In this document: positions 6,615 through 32,089 of the stretch, piece after piece
Layout: the number at the start of each line of letters is the position of its first letter
Numbering within the stretch: position 1 is the first letter of the stretch
Assembly (NCBI GenBank): GCA_015066975.1
Contig: SVNI01000014.1
Location: 1-32,237 of the forward strand
From: Ruminococcus sp.
GTDB taxonomy: Bacteria; Bacillota; Clostridia; Oscillospirales; Ruminococcaceae
DNA length: 32,237 nucleotides
Reading direction: 5' to 3'
Made by a program: the position numbers and the translations under genes
Notes under the pieces: generated by a model
The model's input: the letters and a program-made list of their open reading frames with translations, nothing else
What the model was told of the DNA's origin: nothing
Database searches by the model: none

Positions 6615-8525
6615 ATGTGGAAATTTATGAAAAAATATGCTGTTGCTGCCGCTGCCGGAATCTTGTTGACACAGGCTTCTCTCCTGCCTGCCCGCGCAGA
6701 AGAAACATTTGATTTTTCCTATCTTGGTGCAGTCGGCGATTTTACCGCAGAACAGACACAGAATATCGCAAAGCAGATTTATGACGGACTTTCGGCACAT
6801 CAAACTTCAATCACTGTCGGCGACAGCAAGAATAATTATATTCAAAGCTCTACAAGTGCCATGGAAGCTGTCATGACAATTTACCGCGGTGTCATCAGCG
6901 GATGGGATGTCGGCATTTTGGCTTCCAGACGGACAATCAGCTATCAAGTGCCTAAGAAAGGAAGCATGAAGCTTGTGCCGGCTTACCTAGAAACAAGTAA
7001 TTATAATTCTGTTTATCAGGATTTAATGAATCAGATTGATGAAATTGTCTCCGGTGTGGACGAAAGCTGGTCGGATGCTGAAAAAGCTCTGTATCTGCAT
7101 GAATATATGGCTGTGCATTTTGATTATGACCATGATGAGTACAGCGATTCTACACTTATGGAATTACAGCATACCGCTTATGGAATGCTCAAAAACGGCA
7201 AGGCAGTATGTGAAGGCTATGCATGGTTATATGATATTCTTCTGCACCGTGTCGGCGTGGATGCCATGCTTCTGGAAAGTGTTGAAATCGGTCATGGCTG
7301 GAATCTTGTCAAAATTGATGATAAATGGTATCATGTAGATGTTACATGGGATGATTCTTATGATACACATCCCGGCATGGTCAAGCATGATTATTTCCTG
7401 AAAGATAACGATACTATGCTGAATTCTTATCATACTTCAACGGACTGGGTACTGACTTCCGGGCAGTCCGTCTATGATTTGAACGTTTCAGATGATTACA
7501 ATGACGGCTTCTGGAATAACTGCAACTCTTTGATTCAGCAGTATCAGGGCAAATGGTTTGCAATTCACGGCGAAAAAAGCACAACAGCATGGTTTGACCT
7601 GTGTGATTTCAATGCCAAAACACATACTTATGAACTGATTCATCTGAATTCACTGGATGCCAAATGGGCAAGATGGTATGTATTTGAAAACGAAAGCTAT
7701 TACTACACAGATACTTATATCACTCCTGCGGTTGTGAATGGTATTCTGTATTATACAACACCTTCTGCGATATTCTCCTTACAAGATGGACAGGTGACAT
7801 GGCTTCTCGATTTGACCAGCGAACAGAAACAGCAGGGTTATATCTACGGTATGTATGCGGAAGAAAATCTGCTTCATTATTATGTGGCAACTGCTCCGAA
7901 TGAGACTTCTCAGGAATATGTGGTAGAAGTTTCGGCTTCTGAAGAAGAAACAGAAACGACTACAGAAGAAACAACAACTACTACCACTACTACAGAAACG
8001 ACAGCTACGACAACGACATCTACCACTCCGGAAACGACAACCACGACAACGACATCTACCACTCCGGAAACAACCACTACGACAACGACATCTACCACTC
8101 CGGAAACAACCACTACGACAACGACATCTACCACTCCGGAAACAACCACTACGACAACGACATCTACCACTCCGGAAACGACAACCACGACAACGACATC
8201 TACCACTCCGGAAACGACAACTACGACAACAACATCTACCACTCCGGAAACCACCACCACGACAACGACATCTACTACTCCGGAAACTACTACCTCAACA
8301 ACTGAGCCTGAAACAATTCCCGAAGAAACAGAACTTCCCGTTCTTATCGGCGATATTGACGGCGATAATGAAATTTCTGTAAAGGACATCATCACGGTGC
8401 AAAAATATCTGCTTGGCAAAGAACCTCTTTCGGAAGAAGAATATCTCCTCGCGGATTTGACAGATGACCAGATTGTAAATATTTTCGATTTTATCGCTAT
8501 GAAACGGCTTGTTCTGAATTCCTGA
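6615..8525 (+). CDS. Secreted transglutaminase-like protein with Thr-rich repeats and dockerin
   Basis: A 636-residue extracellular protein. Residues 1-28 are a signal peptide (MWKFMKKYAV, Ala-rich core, cleavage near ARA-EE). The transglutaminase-like core has KAVCEGYAWLYDILL with Cys199, GHGWN with His227 and WYHVDVTWDD with Asp242, the expected Cys-His-Asp triad; bacterial members of this superfamily are often proteases or crosslinkers. A Thr-rich linker from about residue 440 contains eight 12-residue repeats. Residues 579-636 form a dockerin: GDIDGDNEISVKD and ADLTDDQIVNIFD are the two calcium loops, so the protein probably docks to a cohesin scaffold. SD AAAGGGG before ATG 6615. It is not a carbohydrase by sequence, so its role in the cellulosome is open. 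Confidence 0.88.
   Translation: MWKFMKKYAVAAAAGILLTQASLLPARAEETFDFSYLGAVGDFTAEQTQNIAKQIYDGLSAHQTSITVGDSKNNYIQSSTSAMEAVMTIYRGVISGWDVGILASRRTISYQVPKKGSMKLVPAYLETSNYNSVYQDLMNQIDEIVSGVDESWSDAEKALYLHEYMAVHFDYDHDEYSDSTLMELQHTAYGMLKNGKAVCEGYAWLYDILLHRVGVDAMLLESVEIGHGWNLVKIDDKWYHVDVTWDDSYDTHPGMVKHDYFLKDNDTMLNSYHTSTDWVLTSGQSVYDLNVSDDYNDGFWNNCNSLIQQYQGKWFAIHGEKSTTAWFDLCDFNAKTHTYELIHLNSLDAKWARWYVFENESYYYTDTYITPAVVNGILYYTTPSAIFSLQDGQVTWLLDLTSEQKQQGYIYGMYAEENLLHYYVATAPNETSQEYVVEVSASEEETETTTEETTTTTTTTETTATTTTSTTPETTTTTTTSTTPETTTTTTTSTTPETTTTTTTSTTPETTTTTTTSTTPETTTTTTTSTTPETTTTTTTSTTPETTTTTTTSTTPETTTSTTEPETIPEETELPVLIGDIDGDNEISVKDIITVQKYLLGKEPLSEEEYLLADLTDDQIVNIFDFIAMKRLVLNS
7995..8282 (+). repeat. Eight tandem 36-bp repeats coding a Thr-rich linker
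   Basis: Exactly eight in-frame 36-base units encode E-T-T-[T/A]-T-T-T-T-S-T-T-P. Units differ only at synonymous or near-synonymous sites (ACA, ACG, ACC and ACT for Thr), except the first, which has one Ala. Such linkers in cellulosomal proteins are usually O-glycosylated spacers before a dockerin. Copy number is likely to vary between strains by slippage. Confidence 0.95.
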
Positions 8526-10171: not shown

Positions 10172-10927
10172 ATGAAATTGCAGGAAATCAGCGCGTTTGC
10201 AGGGTATTCGCTGAAAGGTCAGCGAAAAACAGCCAGGTTTATGGCTTTCAGCTATCTCGCTGTATGGCTGATGATGAAGACAATTCCGGATTTGACAGCA
10301 GGTGCGCTGATATTCCGGGAAGAAATACTTCCGGCGGATATCTTTTTCAGCCGGAATATGTTCTGGATGGCATTTATCATACTTTGGAATATGCTGAATT
10401 TCTGCATTCTGACTCCGATGCTGTGTGCTGTCTGCGGATGGTTTTCAGAGCAATTGGGTTTCGGCCGGAAGAAATGCTTTTTCGGGCGCGGAAAGCTTTA
10501 CTGGAAATCACTGTGGTTTTTTGGAAAAATCGCTGTCATACGGTTTCTGATGCTGTTTCCATTCGTGCTGGCCTGCTGGCTTGCCGAAAAAACTTTTGAA
10601 AAATCTGCTTTCATGGAAGATGCCGGAATCTGGCTGTTTCTAACGACACAATGTATTGTTGTAGCGGCCTGGACGGGGATTTTGTATCTTCGGTTTTGCA
10701 GCAATTTGATGGCTGTGCCGTTTTTGTTTCTAGAAAATTCGGATATTTCCGCTTTGAAAGCTCTGAAGTATTCCGGCCGGATTCTGGAAGGACGTCACAG
10801 GAAGCTGTTTTTGATTCTCTGCACAGGCTTGACTCTGCCGCGGACTGTCACTATGATGACTCTGTATCTGCAAATCAGGATAAGGGAATATTTTCAGGAG
10901 CAGGAAAAATGCTTGACTTTTTCGTAA
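10172..10927 (+). CDS. Integral membrane protein, possibly DUF975-like
   Basis: A 251-residue protein with about five hydrophobic spans (near 21-48, 63-90, 112-138, 153-178 and 211-233). I do not recognise it with certainty. The motif ALKYSGRILEGRHRKLFLI near residues 197-215, a basic stretch just before the last span, resembles the conserved part of DUF975-type clostridial membrane proteins. ATG 10172 follows AAGGGGG. The last 15 bases of the gene contain the -35 element of the promoter for the downstream RNA array, so coding and promoter sequence overlap there. Confidence 0.7.
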   Translation: MKLQEISAFAGYSLKGQRKTARFMAFSYLAVWLMMKTIPDLTAGALIFREEILPADIFFSRNMFWMAFIILWNMLNFCILTPMLCAVCGWFSEQLGFGRKKCFFGRGKLYWKSLWFFGKIAVIRFLMLFPFVLACWLAEKTFEKSAFMEDAGIWLFLTTQCIVVAAWTGILYLRFCSNLMAVPFLFLENSDISALKALKYSGRILEGRHRKLFLILCTGLTLPRTVTMMTLYLQIRIREYFQEQEKCLTFS

Positions 10928-10941
10928 ATTTATGTTATAAT
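10913..10941 (+). promoter_or_regulatory. Consensus promoter of the tRNA-like RNA array
   Basis: TTGACT at 10913-10918, a 17-base spacer and a perfect TATAAT at 10936-10941. A start about seven bases downstream would fall near 10948, right at the first base of the outer helix of unit 1 (10951). The -35 lies inside the upstream coding sequence. Confidence 0.8.
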
Positions 10942-10950
10942 CAGAAAAAA

Positions 10951-11081
10951 TCCGCCTGATGCAGAGCATTCAGATACTTCGACTTCTAATCGGCGTGTCA
11001 CCGGTTCGACTCCGGTCTGTGCTTGCACAGTAGCTCAGTGGGTAGAGCAGCATAATTCTGGTGCTGATATTCTCAGGCGGA
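10951..11081 (+). ncRNA. Unit 1: permuted tRNA-Arg(UCU)-like element
   Basis: Outer helix 10951-10959 with 11073-11081 (9 bp); second helix 10965-10974 with 11057-11065 (one bulge). In tRNA numbering, the anticodon-like loop CTTCTAA is at 10983-10989 with UCU at 10985-10987. The variable loop is 10995-10999. The T-arm is ACCGG-TTCGACT-CCGGT (11000-11016). The acceptor 3' strand (11017-11023) is followed at once by the acceptor 5' strand (11024-11030, 6 bp plus a T-T mismatch). TA is at 8-9, and the D-arm is GCTC-AGTGGGTA-GAGC (11033-11048). T-loop and D-loop bases needed for the tRNA elbow (GG, TTC) are intact. No CCA is encoded. Confidence 0.75.
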
Positions 11082-11084
11082 ATG

Positions 11085-11183
11085 TATCTGATGCAGTGTA
11101 TCGGTTACTTCGTGGGCGCATATGAGTAATGTTTACAGGGTTCGACTCCCTGCGCCTTGTTCCGGTGCGAGGATTCTCAGATA
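11085..11183 (+). ncRNA. Unit 2: reduced unit with a T-arm only
   Basis: Outer helix 11085-11091 with 11177-11183 (7 bp). Second helix 11097-11104 with 11162-11169 (8 bp including G-U pairs). TACTTC is at 11106-11111. The T-arm CAGGG-TTCGACT-CCCTG (11136-11152) has the same loop as unit 1. GGCG at 11115-11118 can pair with CGCC at 11153-11156, stacking on the T-arm like an acceptor. Acceptor hairpin and D-arm are missing; only nine bases separate the T-arm from the second helix. Confidence 0.65.
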
Positions 11184-11198
11184 ATAATCATGTCAGAA

Positions 11199-11338
11199 TC
11201 TGCCTGATGCAGGGTAGCAGTTACTTCATATAGTCCACGGCGGAGGTTATCGGTTTCAGTCCGGTCTGCTTTAAAAGCAGTAGTTCAATCCAGAACGCCG
11301 CCATTTGAAACATACTGCTGCTGATATTCTCAGGCAGA
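11199..11338 (+). ncRNA. Unit 3: permuted tRNA-Gly-like element with full acceptor stem
   Basis: Outer helix 11199-11207 with 11330-11338 (9 bp); second helix 11213-11221 with 11314-11322 (9 bp with wobbles). In tRNA numbering, positions 39-43 are GGCGG (11239-11243) and the variable loop is 11244-11248. The T-arm is ATCGG-TTTCAGT-CCGGT (11249-11265). The acceptor 3' strand CTGCTTT (11266-11272), a single A (11273) and the acceptor 5' strand AAAGCAG (11274-11280) give a perfect 7-bp stem. TA is at 8-9, and the D-arm is GTTC-AATCCA-GAAC (11283-11296). Positions 27-31 CCGCC (11298-11302) pair with 39-43. The D-arm resembles that of tRNA-Gly. T-loop and D-loop have lost elbow bases. Confidence 0.7.
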
Positions 11339-11405
11339 AAATTAAAAAATTTAATTTTGTTTACAGAAAATTAAGAAAATATTTTCATAAAATTCAGAAT
11401 AACAC

Positions 11406-11434
11406 TTGACATTTTCCGGATTTTATGCTAAAAT
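11406..11434 (+). promoter_or_regulatory. Main promoter of the S10-spc-alpha operon
   Basis: TTGACA at 11406-11411 is perfect, the spacer is 17 bases, and TAAAAT at 11429-11434 carries a TGC extension. The combination predicts very strong transcription, fitting a ribosomal-protein operon. The transcript would start near 11441 and have a leader of about 320 bases. Confidence 0.85.
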
Positions 11435-11440
11435 ATATAA

Positions 11441-11762
11441 AGTCCAAGAAAATTGGATAACTAATATGCGCAGAAGCGGAAGGTTGCTGACGGTTTGTCA
11501 GGGAATTTCCGTGGAGTATGTCCGGTCATCAGAACCGGTCGGCAAGAAATGATGACACAGTATGTGCTACAGGAAGATAGTATTTCCTTTGTGAAATATT
11601 CTCCCTTTAGGTGTGACTGTGTGCCCGTTTGCCGGAATCTGCCAAAGATTGCCGGTTTTTGTATTGCTTAACCCACGATACACACGGAAACGGGAAAAAG
11701 CATCATCTCTGAAAACTGCGCCCCCAATTTTGATTTTTTTAAATTAAGGAGGCGAATTTGAA
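11441..11762 (+). promoter_or_regulatory. Structured leader of the S10 operon, probable regulatory element
   Basis: The untranslated region before rpsJ holds nested helices. CGGAA (11477-11481) pairs with TTCCG (11507-11511), enclosing CTGAC/GTCAG (11487-11491 with 11497-11501). CCGGT/ACCGG is at 11522-11526 and 11534-11538, in competition with GTCATCA/TGATGAC (11525-11531, 11550-11556). An 8-bp hairpin lies at 11579-11600, followed by a terminator-like hairpin. CGGCAA at 11540-11545 can pair with TTGCCG in either arm of that terminator, so a switch is possible. Known r-protein operons are often controlled by their own products through such leaders; which protein would bind here is not shown. 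Confidence 0.6.
11632..11660 (+). terminator. Attenuator in the rpsJ leader
   Basis: CCGGAATC (11632-11639) pairs with GATT and CCGG (11647-11655, one bulged G) and is followed by TTTTT at 11656-11660, about 100 bases before rpsJ. Because it lies between promoter and first gene, it would act as a conditional terminator. Confidence 0.55.
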
Positions 11763-27475: not shown

Positions 27476-28123
27476 TTATTTTCCTCGTTTTTTCTTGTCA
27501 GCATCAATGGATTTGCGCCATGCGTTGGAAAGTTTCTTTCCGCTGCGCATTTCGGAAACAGAGGCAGACATTGCATGGAACAGAACGTCAGTTCCTTTAC
27601 TGTCAGCCAGATAATCAACGGAACGTTCTGCTGAAATACCGAGCTTTGCGCCTTCGGTAACGGCATCAATATTCGCACCGATAAAGACGAATTCCCAGCC
27701 GAGTTTTTTCTTTTCTTCAATCAAAGACTTGATTTTCGCATAGTTGAATTCTCGGCTTGCGTTCTCCATGCCATCCGTTGTGATGATGAACATAGTATGT
27801 TCCGGCACATCTTCCGGACGGGCATATTTATGGATATTGCTGATATGATTGATAGTACTGCCGACTGCATCCAGAAGCGCGGTCATTCCGCGAACAGTAT
27901 AATCTTTGCCAGTAAGCGTTTTGATTTCCTGCAAATCCAGACGGTCATGAAGCGTTTCAATTTTGTCATCAAACAGAATTGTTGTAACGAATGCCTTGCC
28001 GTCTTCTTTTTTCTGTTTTTCAATCATGCCGTTGAAACCGCCGATAGTATCTTTTTCCAGGCCGCTCATAGAACCGCTTCGGTCAAGAATGAATACAAGT
28101 TCAGTCGAATTGTTTCCAGCCAT
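27476..28123 (-). CDS. von Willebrand factor A domain protein
   Basis: A 215-residue cytoplasmic protein that is almost entirely one vWA domain. The metal-ion-dependent adhesion site is complete: DRSGSMS (Asp14, Ser16, Ser18), Thr81 in RGMTALLDAV, and Asp117 in ITTDGMENAS. There is no signal peptide, membrane span or partner AAA ATPase next to it. Such stand-alone vWA proteins bind protein partners, but the partner is not known here. ATG 28123 follows AAGGAGG on the minus strand. The C-terminal tail is Lys-rich. Confidence 0.88.
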   Translation of the reverse strand: MAGNNSTELVFILDRSGSMSGLEKDTIGGFNGMIEKQKKEDGKAFVTTILFDDKIETLHDRLDLQEIKTLTGKDYTVRGMTALLDAVGSTINHISNIHKYARPEDVPEHTMFIITTDGMENASREFNYAKIKSLIEEKKKLGWEFVFIGANIDAVTEGAKLGISAERSVDYLADSKGTDVLFHAMSASVSEMRSGKKLSNAWRKSIDADKKKRGK

Positions 28124-28271: not shown

Positions 28272-28300
28272 AAAAAAAATTATGAAAAGAGGTTTTGACA

Positions 28301-29488
28301 ATGCCGGAATATCAGGATATTTATGACATTCACAGAAATCTGACAGGCAGAACTGTCCAGAGAGGAAAGCCCAGAAAAAAAGATGAATTCATTCTCGTGA
28401 TTCATCTGCTACTATTCGATAAGCAAGGGCGGTTTCTGGTGCAGAAACGCGTGAAAAATAAGGCAAGCTGGCCGGATATGTGGGATATATCTCTTGGAGG
28501 AATCGCCCAGTCCGGTGATAACAGCCGCTCTGCTGTGACAAGAGAAGCCGAAGAAGAACTCGGTCTGCATCTCGATTTTACCGATACAGAGCCGATTTTT
28601 TCATTCCGAAACTATAATATCTGGGATGATTACTGGATTGCACAGATTGATTCAGAACATCTGGAATTAAAGCTTCAGCCGGAAGAAGTTGCCGAAGCAA
28701 AATGGGTGACTAAACCCGAATGGGAAGCACTTCTGTATACACATCAGGTGATTCCGTACATGTTTCAGTGGACGCTGTTTGAACTCTATGAAAAGCATTT
28801 CCCCGGCACAAGAATTTTCCCATTTGGCAATCCGGCGGAAATCAAGGGTGCATTGTTCGATATGGATGGTCTGCTTCTGGATACAGAGCGTGTCTGCTCT
28901 GAAACGTGGGACAAAGCCGCTGAACTTGTGGGCTTTGCAGATGTCCAGAGAGCAAAAATGGCTTGTATCGGCTTGAATCGTGAAAGTACTATTGCTTTTT
29001 TTGAAAAGACTTACGGCAAAAAATTCGATTATCAGAATTTTCTGGATACTGCCCGGAAACTTACTAAAGAAGCCCTTGCAGAACATGTGCCTGTCAAGGA
29101 GGGTGCGCCTGAAATTCTGCAATTCCTGAAAGAAAAGGACGTAAAGCTTGCGCTGGCAAGCTCTACCAGAGAAGTCACCGTCCGGAAACAGCTCGAAAGA
29201 GCCGGATTACTGCAATATTTTGATGCCGTCATCACGGGCGATATGGTGCAGAACGGCAAGCCGCATCCGGAAATTTTTCAGAAAGCCTGTCATGCCTTGA
29301 ATCTCGAACCGGAAACCAGCATTACGTTTGAGGATTCTATTAATGGCATCCGTAGTGCTTACAGAGCGAAAACTTATCCGATTCATATTCCGGATATTCA
29401 GCCAGAAAATCAGGAGACTGTCGCTTTAAGCTGGAAAAAATTTCCGTCTCTGACAGAAGCTAAGAAATTTCTTGAAAAATTATTATGA
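28301..29488 (+). CDS. Nudix hydrolase - HAD phosphatase fusion protein
   Basis: A 395-residue two-domain enzyme. Residues 1-170 are a Nudix domain of the isopentenyl-diphosphate isomerase-like type (WDISLGGIAQ, YTHQVIPYMF). The Nudix box at 67-89 ends in REAEEELGL, but the first box Glu is Asp73. Residues 180-395 are a HAD domain of the beta-phosphoglucomutase type: DMDGLLLDTE (Asp187, Asp189), LASSTR (motif II), GKPHPEIF (Lys320), TFEDSINGI (motif IV). The join suggests sequential hydrolysis of a pyrophosphate compound, then its monophosphate; the substrate is unknown. Start at ATG 28301, eight bases after AAAAGAGG; an in-frame TTG lies six bases upstream. The stop overlaps a short ATGA start. 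Confidence 0.87.
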   Translation: MPEYQDIYDIHRNLTGRTVQRGKPRKKDEFILVIHLLLFDKQGRFLVQKRVKNKASWPDMWDISLGGIAQSGDNSRSAVTREAEEELGLHLDFTDTEPIFSFRNYNIWDDYWIAQIDSEHLELKLQPEEVAEAKWVTKPEWEALLYTHQVIPYMFQWTLFELYEKHFPGTRIFPFGNPAEIKGALFDMDGLLLDTERVCSETWDKAAELVGFADVQRAKMACIGLNRESTIAFFEKTYGKKFDYQNFLDTARKLTKEALAEHVPVKEGAPEILQFLKEKDVKLALASSTREVTVRKQLERAGLLQYFDAVITGDMVQNGKPHPEIFQKACHALNLEPETSITFEDSINGIRSAYRAKTYPIHIPDIQPENQETVALSWKKFPSLTEAKKFLEKLL

Positions 29489-30118: not shown

Positions 30119-30147
30119 TTGACTTTTTGTCATTTTAATTATATAAT
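30119..30147 (+). promoter_or_regulatory. Promoter of the GH5 gene
   Basis: TTGACT at 30119-30124 and TATAAT at 30142-30147 with a 17-base spacer; the start codon is about 68 bases on, leaving a short leader. Confidence 0.8.
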
Positions 30148-30214
30148 GAAATCACAAAGAGAAAACATGCGTTTTCATAAAGAGGTAAAATTTCAAGTTT
30201 GGGGGAAACTAACT

Positions 30215-32089
30215 ATGAAGAATCATAACAAAATGAGCAGATTCGCTGCTATCGCTGCTGTTGCTGCACTGACAGTCACCGGTTTAAGCATTCTGCCAGA
30301 ATCCGCAATCGAGACAAAAGCCGCTTCTCTGACTGGTCAGAATGCACAGAGCATTACTTCACAGATGACTATCGGCTGGAATCTCGGAAACACGCTCGAT
30401 GTCGCTACTACCGGACTGAAAAGCACAACTGCTCCGGGAAAATTCGTTACAAAATGGGGCAATCCCGAACCGACTCAGGAACTGTTCGATACTGTCAAGG
30501 CAGGCGGTTTCAATACCGTCAGAATCCCGACAACTTGGTATGAACATCTTGAATATGATGAATCCAGCCAGATGTATGTTGTCAATGAAAGCTGGATGGA
30601 TTATGTCAAGCAGACTGTCGATTATGCCTATAATCAGGATATGTTTGTCATTCTGAATGTTCATCATGAAGATTTCATCAATGAGAAAGTATTCACAGAT
30701 GAAACTTACGCAGTCGCTGCTAAGAAATTAGGCGACATCTGGACACAGGTTTCTGAAACATTCGCAGATTATGACCAGCATCTGATTTTTGAGGGTATGA
30801 ACGAACCTCGTCAGACCGGAAATCCCAGTGTCAATGAATGGGGCAACGGAACAGGCGATAACGGTTATACAACACAGTATATCAACAATCTGAATGCTGT
30901 TTTCGTGAACACTGTCAGAAGTCAGGGGTCTTCCGCCAATCAGGAAAGACTGCTGATGCTTCCGGGCTATTGTGCTTCTTCTGATTCCACAGCTATCAGA
31001 AATATTGAAATTCCTGCAAATGCCGGAAATGTAGCACTTTCTGTACATGCCTATCTGCCGTATTATTTCACAATGGCAACAGATAGCAAAGCTGTTCACG
31101 AATTCCCCGGTAAGAGCGGATGGGGAGAGGATTATGAATATTCTCTGACAACATTCTTCAACAACATGAAGCAGATTTCTGCTGAAAAGAATACGCCTAT
31201 TATTATCGGTGAATTCAGTGCATCTGATTTTGATAATACAGAATCTCGTGTCAACTGGGCGAAATCCTATCTTTCCAAGGCAAAAGATGCCGGCATTCCG
31301 TGCGTTCTGTGGGATAACAATGTAGTTTCCGTCAATAACGGCGAAGCGCATGGCTATGTATACAGATTAACCAATACATGGTATACACAGTCCGCACCGG
31401 TTATCGAAGCTATGATGGGCGTTTATGGCATTACTCCGACACTTCCGGCTTATGAAGAATATGTTTCTCCGGAATTTTCATGGGATAAAGTGCCGAAGGA
31501 TGAAACATGGGTAGAATTGTTCCGTTCAGCCAAGGGACTCGACCTCGAAGCGTGGAAGCCCTCCGCTCTGGGTCAGTGGAAACAGTATGCCAATGAAAAT
31601 TATGATTTTGTCATGATTTATGAAACCGCAGGCGAACCTGCTCTTGTACTTCAGGACGAAGCCAAGGAAACATGGAATTATGTAAGCGCATCTGATACAG
31701 ATACTCCGTTCTTAGCATATTTCACTTATGAAGATTTGCTTTCTGCAATTGAAGGTACAGACGTTACACTCGAAGAAGAAGATAATCTCTACATGAGTGC
31801 AATGGCACAGGATTTGAAAGTTTACGGTGTGTATGCCGTTCCGAAAAACGGTGCAGAAGTACCTACAGAAACCGAGACTGATACAGAAAGCGAACCCCTG
31901 CCCATTGAAACAGGAGATGTCAATCAGGATGGAACAGTTTCCCTTCTGGATATTATCACACTCCAGAAATTCCTGCTCGGCAAGCCTACAGGGCAGCAGG
32001 TAATGCTCAATGCAGATATGAATCATGACAGCATTCTCAATATCTATGACCTGATTCTGCTGAAAAAACAGCTTCTCAAAGTTCGGTAA
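30215..32089 (+). CDS. GH5 endoglucanase with unassigned module and dockerin
   Basis: Secreted beta-glycanase, 624 residues from ATG 30215 (preceded by GGGGGAAA; the frame runs upstream through the promoter but that part cannot be translated from this transcript). Signal peptide 1-36 (MKNHNKMSRF, Ala-rich core, TKA-AS). The GH5 catalytic domain (about 40-405) has GWNLGNTLD at 54-62, NVHHE, MNEP with acid/base Glu197, HAY near 278-280 and IGEF with nucleophile Glu333. Residues about 415-545 are a separate, unassigned module. An acidic Thr/Glu linker leads to the dockerin at 567-624 with calcium loops GDVNQDGTVSLLD and ADMNHDSILNIYD. The protein should attach to a cohesin scaffold and cut cellulose or related beta-glucans. 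Confidence 0.94.
   Translation: MKNHNKMSRFAAIAAVAALTVTGLSILPESAIETKAASLTGQNAQSITSQMTIGWNLGNTLDVATTGLKSTTAPGKFVTKWGNPEPTQELFDTVKAGGFNTVRIPTTWYEHLEYDESSQMYVVNESWMDYVKQTVDYAYNQDMFVILNVHHEDFINEKVFTDETYAVAAKKLGDIWTQVSETFADYDQHLIFEGMNEPRQTGNPSVNEWGNGTGDNGYTTQYINNLNAVFVNTVRSQGSSANQERLLMLPGYCASSDSTAIRNIEIPANAGNVALSVHAYLPYYFTMATDSKAVHEFPGKSGWGEDYEYSLTTFFNNMKQISAEKNTPIIIGEFSASDFDNTESRVNWAKSYLSKAKDAGIPCVLWDNNVVSVNNGEAHGYVYRLTNTWYTQSAPVIEAMMGVYGITPTLPAYEEYVSPEFSWDKVPKDETWVELFRSAKGLDLEAWKPSALGQWKQYANENYDFVMIYETAGEPALVLQDEAKETWNYVSASDTDTPFLAYFTYEDLLSAIEGTDVTLEEEDNLYMSAMAQDLKVYGVYAVPKNGAEVPTETETDTESEPLPIETGDVNQDGTVSLLDIITLQKFLLGKPTGQQVMLNADMNHDSILNIYDLILLKKQLLKVR

Follow-up and report, generated by a model that had tools for sequence, protein, structure and literature searches.

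Anatomy of unit 1

The window analysed here, a stretch of 32,237 nucleotides from Ruminococcus sp., carries upstream of the S10 operon a unit in which the arms of a tRNA follow one another in permuted order, and the question is what kind of RNA this unit encodes. Judged from the sequence, we consider with a probability of about 0.82 that unit 1 is, in identity and architecture, a Ro60-type bacterial Y RNA into which an entire tRNA is built, permuted and sealed. The features referred to below are the following.

10913..10941, plus strand: sigma-70 promoter TTGACT-17-TATAAT (11/12 matches, TG before the −10)
10949..11082, plus strand: unit 1, probable Y RNA that contains a full tRNA mimic in permuted, sealed form (Rfam, pair conservation, ARAGORN)
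10952..10959, plus strand: 5′ strand of the outer stem, CCGCCTGA, presumed to bind Ro; pairs with TCAGGCGG at 11073-11080
10960..10964, plus strand: TGCAG, 5′ side of the internal loop, opposite GATATTC at 11066-11072 (conservation)
10965..10974, plus strand: second stem, AGCA..CAGA; pairs with 11057-11065 (TCTG.TGCT), with two compensatory pairs
10975..10980, plus strand: TACTTC motif, common to this group's Y units, both bacterial and phage
10978..10994, plus strand: anticodon arm TTCGA-CTTCTAA-TCGGC; triplet TCT at 10985-10987; the stem covaries in phage and bacterial units
10995..10999, plus strand: variable region GTGTC, tRNA positions 44-48 (from sequence; a single change, otherwise invariant)
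11000..11016, plus strand: T-arm ACCGG-TTCGACT-CCGGT, T-loop at 11005-11011 (Rfam match, covariation)
11017..11030, plus strand: sealed acceptor hairpin CTGTGC-TT-GCACAG without CCA (pair conservation, sequence)
11031..11049, plus strand: U8-A9, D-arm GCTC-AGTGGGTA-GAGC and A26; D-loop at 11037-11044 (Rfam match, ortholog alignment)
11057..11080, plus strand: 3′ strands of the second and outer stems with the internal loop GATATTC (pair conservation)
11081..11186, plus strand: unit 2, Ro-type stem with a T-arm/acceptor minihelix and no D-arm (alignment)
11197..11339, plus strand: unit 3, opened as in canonical Y RNAs, with an anticodon stem that pairs across the module (folding, alignment)
11406..11434, plus strand: the S10 operon's own, separate promoter, 3′ of the array (promoter scan)
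11463..11545, plus strand: S10-Clostridia ribosomal protein leader, a neighbour outside the array

From 5′ to 3′, we observed in unit 1 an outer-stem strand, TGCAG, a strand of the second stem, TACTTC, an anticodon-like hairpin, the T-arm, the sealed acceptor, the D-arm and the closing strands. Its 5′ and 3′ ends pair and the resulting stem contains a conserved internal loop, as in a Ro module, while the tRNA-like module is complete with T-arm, closed acceptor and D-arm. The anticodon stem begins at the TTC of the TACTTC motif. The transcription start is expected about 7 nt 3′ of the sigma-70 promoter, which coincides with the 5′ end of unit 1, and the same promoter was recognised by eye ahead of unit 1 in five other genomes (G019, G026, G028, G034 and G037). 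Unit 1 would be transcribed from this promoter of its own as the first of an array of three units; in those relatives that were checked, the array precedes the S10 operon.

The tRNA-like module

ARAGORN called neither a tRNA nor a tmRNA in the window in its native order, which removes tmRNA from the candidate identities. When the two halves of unit 1, cut by hand, were swapped, the program returned a complete tRNA-Arg(tct), and automatic rotation of the unit gave the same answer (0/114 in the shuffle control). No call was obtained from 2000 dinucleotide shuffles or from 4524 half-swapped stretches of the window. Considered as a tRNA gene, unit 1 has a sealed acceptor and lacks a linear cloverleaf with a free end; considered as a permuted tRNA gene, it has a loop of 2 nt between the halves and no CCA. 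Given the seal of 2-4 nt and the absence of CCA, one would expect neither charging by ArgRS nor decoding.

In seven orthologs of unit 1, standard pairs occupied 99.2% of the pair cells. Compensatory changes were observed in the outer stem, the second stem and the T-stem, the outer stem being 100% paired with two compensatory pairs; this set is neutral on the anticodon hairpin and on the D-stem because neither varies there. The elbow residues U8, A14, G15, G18-G19, A21, C48 and T54-T55-C56-R57-A58 are kept in all seven (alignment, by eye). The original prediction that the T-loop TTCGACT and the D-loop AGTGGGTA retain the residues of an intact tRNA elbow was borne out, and its sealed acceptor end, its local anticodon hairpin CGA-CTTCTAA-TCG at 10980-10992 and its opening between tRNA positions 26 and 27 were recovered as well. 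Folding of the single sequence does not favour the D-arm of the window copy (pair probability 0.12), whose strand is engaged by the GAGC in the second stem instead; the support for this arm is comparative, from the aligned sequences, and single-sequence folding alone would miss it.

Covariation of the anticodon stem was observed among 12 distinct bacterial and phage hairpins taken from the genus, from rsr-flanking loci and from array neighbours of pattern matches, a set that leans towards hairpins because 7-nt loops were picked by eye (score 0.527 versus 0.164±0.046 in shuffles). In these hairpins, pair 31-39 is CG, AU or GC and pair 30-40 is GC, UA or CG. The triplet itself changes across the seven orthologs: three have UCU, the others CCU, GUC, GUU or an 8-nt loop. 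Within the anticodon-arm region 20 of 24 columns are invariant, and three of the four variable ones form the triplet, with a p value of 0.002 that is indicative since the seven sequences are related. The Arg(UCU) identity of unit 1 is not conserved. The emphasis first laid on an Arg(UCU)-like loop was therefore misplaced, as UCU is found in three of the seven orthologs and the others differ. The genomic tRNA-Arg(UCU) (L007) shares with unit 1 the triplet and the CU-UCU-AA loop, but the comparison proposed with it was unfavourable: it is not among the genomic tRNAs closest to the body of unit 1, and descent from this tRNA is unsupported. Descent from tRNA-Asn, a guess from the copy in G008, is unsupported for the other copies. 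When 394 genomes of the order were scanned for the hairpin, a single additional match turned up (G065); it was not confirmed with the R1 model.

Relation to bacterial Y RNAs and to Rsr

The Rfam YrlA model (RF02553) matched unit 1 over its full length (1-114) with 43.6 bits, at an E-value of 1.8e-8 in a 501-base stretch and of 2.2e-8 in a genome-wide search. Because this score is below the gathering cut-off of 69, unit 1 is treated here as a Y RNA variant and not as a member of RF02553; the cut-off is a database threshold and no biological feature. This group of Y RNAs falls short of the YrlA cut-off and escapes tRNA finders, and routine annotation may miss it. Unit 1 shares with YrlA the outer stem with its conserved internal loop, the permuted T-arm, sealed acceptor and D-arm, and the presence of rsr in the genome. 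It differs from YrlA by an extra local anticodon arm, by its opening between positions 26 and 27 and not in the anticodon loop, by its score under the curated cut-off, and by an array on another contig than rsr. Unit 1 is a variant of a known bacterial Y RNA; its binding and function we infer. The original reading of the unit is partly supported, and it had missed the Ro60-type Y RNA identity.

The two other units of the array are built differently. Unit 3 has a degenerate elbow, with the T-loop TTTCAGT and a D-loop without GG. In this unit and its relatives the two strands of the anticodon stem flank the module and pair across it (CCGCC/GGCGG, TCTGT/ACAGA and CCTGT/ACAGG), the opening being in the anticodon loop as in canonical YrlA; unit 1 has its opening between 26 and 27, so that the predicted difference between units 1 and 3 holds. 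The unit 2 type was seen in two unrelated-looking versions (window 11081-11186; L040:1630-1747; L037:1607-1725).

A TROVE protein of 546 amino acids is encoded in the genome (L001:787-2424); it exceeds the cut-off of Pfam PF05731 and, at the sequence level, resembles TROVE chains of the PDB. It carries a DNSGS MIDAS-like motif and has the TROVE plus vWA-like domains of Ro60/Rsr. The sequence of this Rsr is divergent and its predicted model reached a mean pLDDT of just 66; with this model, Foldseek retrieved the Ro60 of the Thermus phage phiLo (9l5y, E 1e-16), Deinococcus radiodurans Rsr (2nvo, E 9e-13) and Xenopus Ro (1yvp, E 2e-12). The genome also encodes PNPase. TROVE is rare in the family (3/396).

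The array and rsr are on separate contigs (C7 and C4). Three more Y-like units lie directly 3′ of rsr (L001:2431-2918), two delimited by an automatic scan with the ATTCTC closing strand and the third by eye, and they share the TGATGCAG..TACTTC motif. The TGCAG/ATTCTC internal loop recurs in these flanking units, and its TGCAG side is nearly invariant in every unit type and in the rsr-flanking units. Units were also found 3′ of rsr in G008, G024, G026, G028, G034 and G037, and several precede a canonical rsr in G025; none was found beside the rsr of G035. Among 38 genomes of the genus, we observed both array and rsr in 8, one or the other alone in 1 and 2, and neither in 27 (p=8e-6). In G019, a genome 77% complete, the array is present and no rsr was detected. 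After the three rsr-flanking units of the Ruminococcus genome come two tandem tRNA-Leu genes on the opposite strand.

Anticodon-armed units in phages

A hairpin-only DNA pattern, TACTTCGACTNNNAATCG, which fixed U33, A37 and A38 and left the triplet free, matched 79 IMG/VR contigs, and a covariance model found full units in 41 of them. An Rsr-like ORF was present in the stretch examined in 33 of the 41 viral loci with a unit and in 7 of the 38 without (p=2e-8). Sixteen triplets occur in the viral hairpins, with U36 in 35/41. A protein search for Rsr returned 32 viral loci; many of these lie on contigs of 80-386 kb and show 53-65% identity, and Y units of the unit 1 group adjoin many of them. 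The gp540 protein of Bacillus phage G is 48.5% identical over 99%, and Y units were found in the Rsr regions of Bacillus phage G, Caulobacter phage CcrColossus and Streptomyces phage BRock. The anticodon-armed form of Y RNA is widespread in phages.

These phage Ro60/Y RNA loci have in common with the bacterial system an Rsr gene, TACTTC units and tRNA modules, some of them anticodon-armed. They differ in that the units stand beside rsr, often among tRNA genes, and in that two are unsealed with CCA. Short loops seal the acceptor in almost every unit; the two exceptions, in phage G (L268:1776-1938) and CcrColossus (L272:1958-2129), encode a discriminator and CCA with a loop from about 20 nt upwards, as in a permuted pre-tRNA.

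Two further observations concern the viral units. Where U36 precedes A37-A38, in 35 of 41 triplets (loci L155-L233), the loop frame is the one found in ANN-decoding, t6A37-type tRNAs. An annotated tRNA-Gln, which was not called by ARAGORN, overlaps the CcrColossus unit.

tRNA mimicry by bacterial Y RNAs is already known (PMC8394870), and Ro60/TROVE genes in phages are already in the literature. A complete anticodon arm in a Y RNA and its spread in phages were not found in the literature searched, whose incomplete coverage of central Y RNA papers limits the claim of novelty. A form that includes the anticodon, present in bacteria and in cultured phages such as Bacillus phage G, makes the role of this mimicry testable. 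The whole-tRNA form asks which tRNA-binding enzyme is captured and whether the anticodon loop matters.

Possible function and alternative explanations

The outer stem and internal loop of unit 1 would constitute the module that binds Rsr, and its effector module would be a whole tRNA, circularly permuted and opened between 26 and 27. As the acceptor is sealed, the elbow and the anticodon loop would be presented and charging would be impossible. The tRNA module may then show a tRNA surface to a partner that recognises tRNA. Rsr sits on the outer stem of Y RNA and PNPase docks on the tRNA-like domain (PMC8394870); the candidate partners here include PNPase, which would dock as it does in the RYPER complex, enzymes that modify tRNA, and anticodon nucleases that would be titrated, each of which, if named singly, is a doubtful choice. 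With positions 34-35 variable, U33 and A37 fixed and U36 mostly kept, a role that reads the loop frame is favoured over one that depends on codon identity.

In the permuted tRNA genes of Cyanidioschyzon and Thermofilum and in two-piece tmRNA, the 3′ half of the tRNA is encoded before the 5′ half. Unit 1 likewise has its 3′ half first, as these systems are described, and once re-ordered it reads as a complete tRNA. It could on these grounds be a permuted tRNA gene of the red-algal type, from which a circularised precursor would give a working tRNA-Arg(UCU); the phage G and CcrColossus units, with discriminator, CCA and long intervening loop, fit such a gene. However, unit 1 is sealed by a tight loop, has neither CCA nor a tag frame, and lies within a Ro-type stem. 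The 2-nt seal in the window leaves no room for CCA, an ordinary tRNA-Arg(tct) is already present in the genome, the anticodons of the orthologs change, once to an 8-nt loop, and units 2 and 3 combine the same Ro-type stem with no usable tRNA. We hold this origin to be very improbable. A chance tRNA-like similarity, or the junction of tandem tRNA genes that is the usual false YrlA match, deserves practically no credence: tandem tRNA genes elsewhere do attract matches to the YrlA and R1 models, and many matches in the genus and family were discarded as such artefacts, but for unit 1 this is refuted by the absence of tRNA genes from the window (ARAGORN), by an outer stem that is present and covaries, and by the shuffles (0/2000 called).

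The reading of unit 1 as a Y RNA with a complete tRNA leaves several roles for the anticodon arm. The arm could be a passive relic with a drifting triplet, the module serving only, through its elbow and sealed acceptor, as a handle for PNPase or modification enzymes. Canonical Y RNAs, described as mimics of the D-arm, T-arm and acceptor only, are reported to work (PMC8394870) and the triplet differs among orthologs, but the rest of the arm is unchanged in the seven orthologs, its stem covaries across phages and U36 recurs in the viral hairpins; we hold this explanation to be rather unlikely. Alternatively, an uncharged tRNA face held by Ro might soak up anticodon nucleases or other loop enzymes, with arrays of mixed triplets widening the cover. 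A decoy or competitive-inhibitor role has been proposed for YrlA (PMC7790460), and many triplets occur in phages, where anticodon cleavage is a common defence (PMC7824862). Against this, Salmonella YrlA was not cut by the nuclease (PMC7790460) and the bacterial copies have no obvious attacker. We regard such a decoy as rather improbable. Of similarly low probability, and offered tentatively, is a broader proposal: a phage-spread class of Y RNAs containing whole permuted tRNAs with the loop frame U33-N-N-U36-A37-A38 and variable positions 34-35, which, held by Ro60, would serve as anticodon-loop mimics to counter enzymes that target tRNA. Within it, processing of the phage G and CcrColossus units might yield two-piece tRNA-Y RNA hybrids that can be charged, because their acceptors are unsealed and CCA is encoded.

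Other features of the window and genome

Elsewhere in the genome (L012:1500-2290, contig C34), six tRNA genes follow each other about 140 bases apart, several of them low-scoring, and may represent a mobile or phage tRNA array. In the window, two ORFs (6615-8525 and 30119-32089) carry terminal dockerin-like repeats, one with a long Thr/Ser/Pro linker and one resembling a glycoside hydrolase; this pair suggests a rumen bacterium of the cellulosome type. A small von Willebrand A-like ORF, distinct from Rsr, is found at 27476-28123 on the minus strand, and the ORF at 28295-29488 resembles a NUDIX hydrolase fused to a HAD phosphatase.
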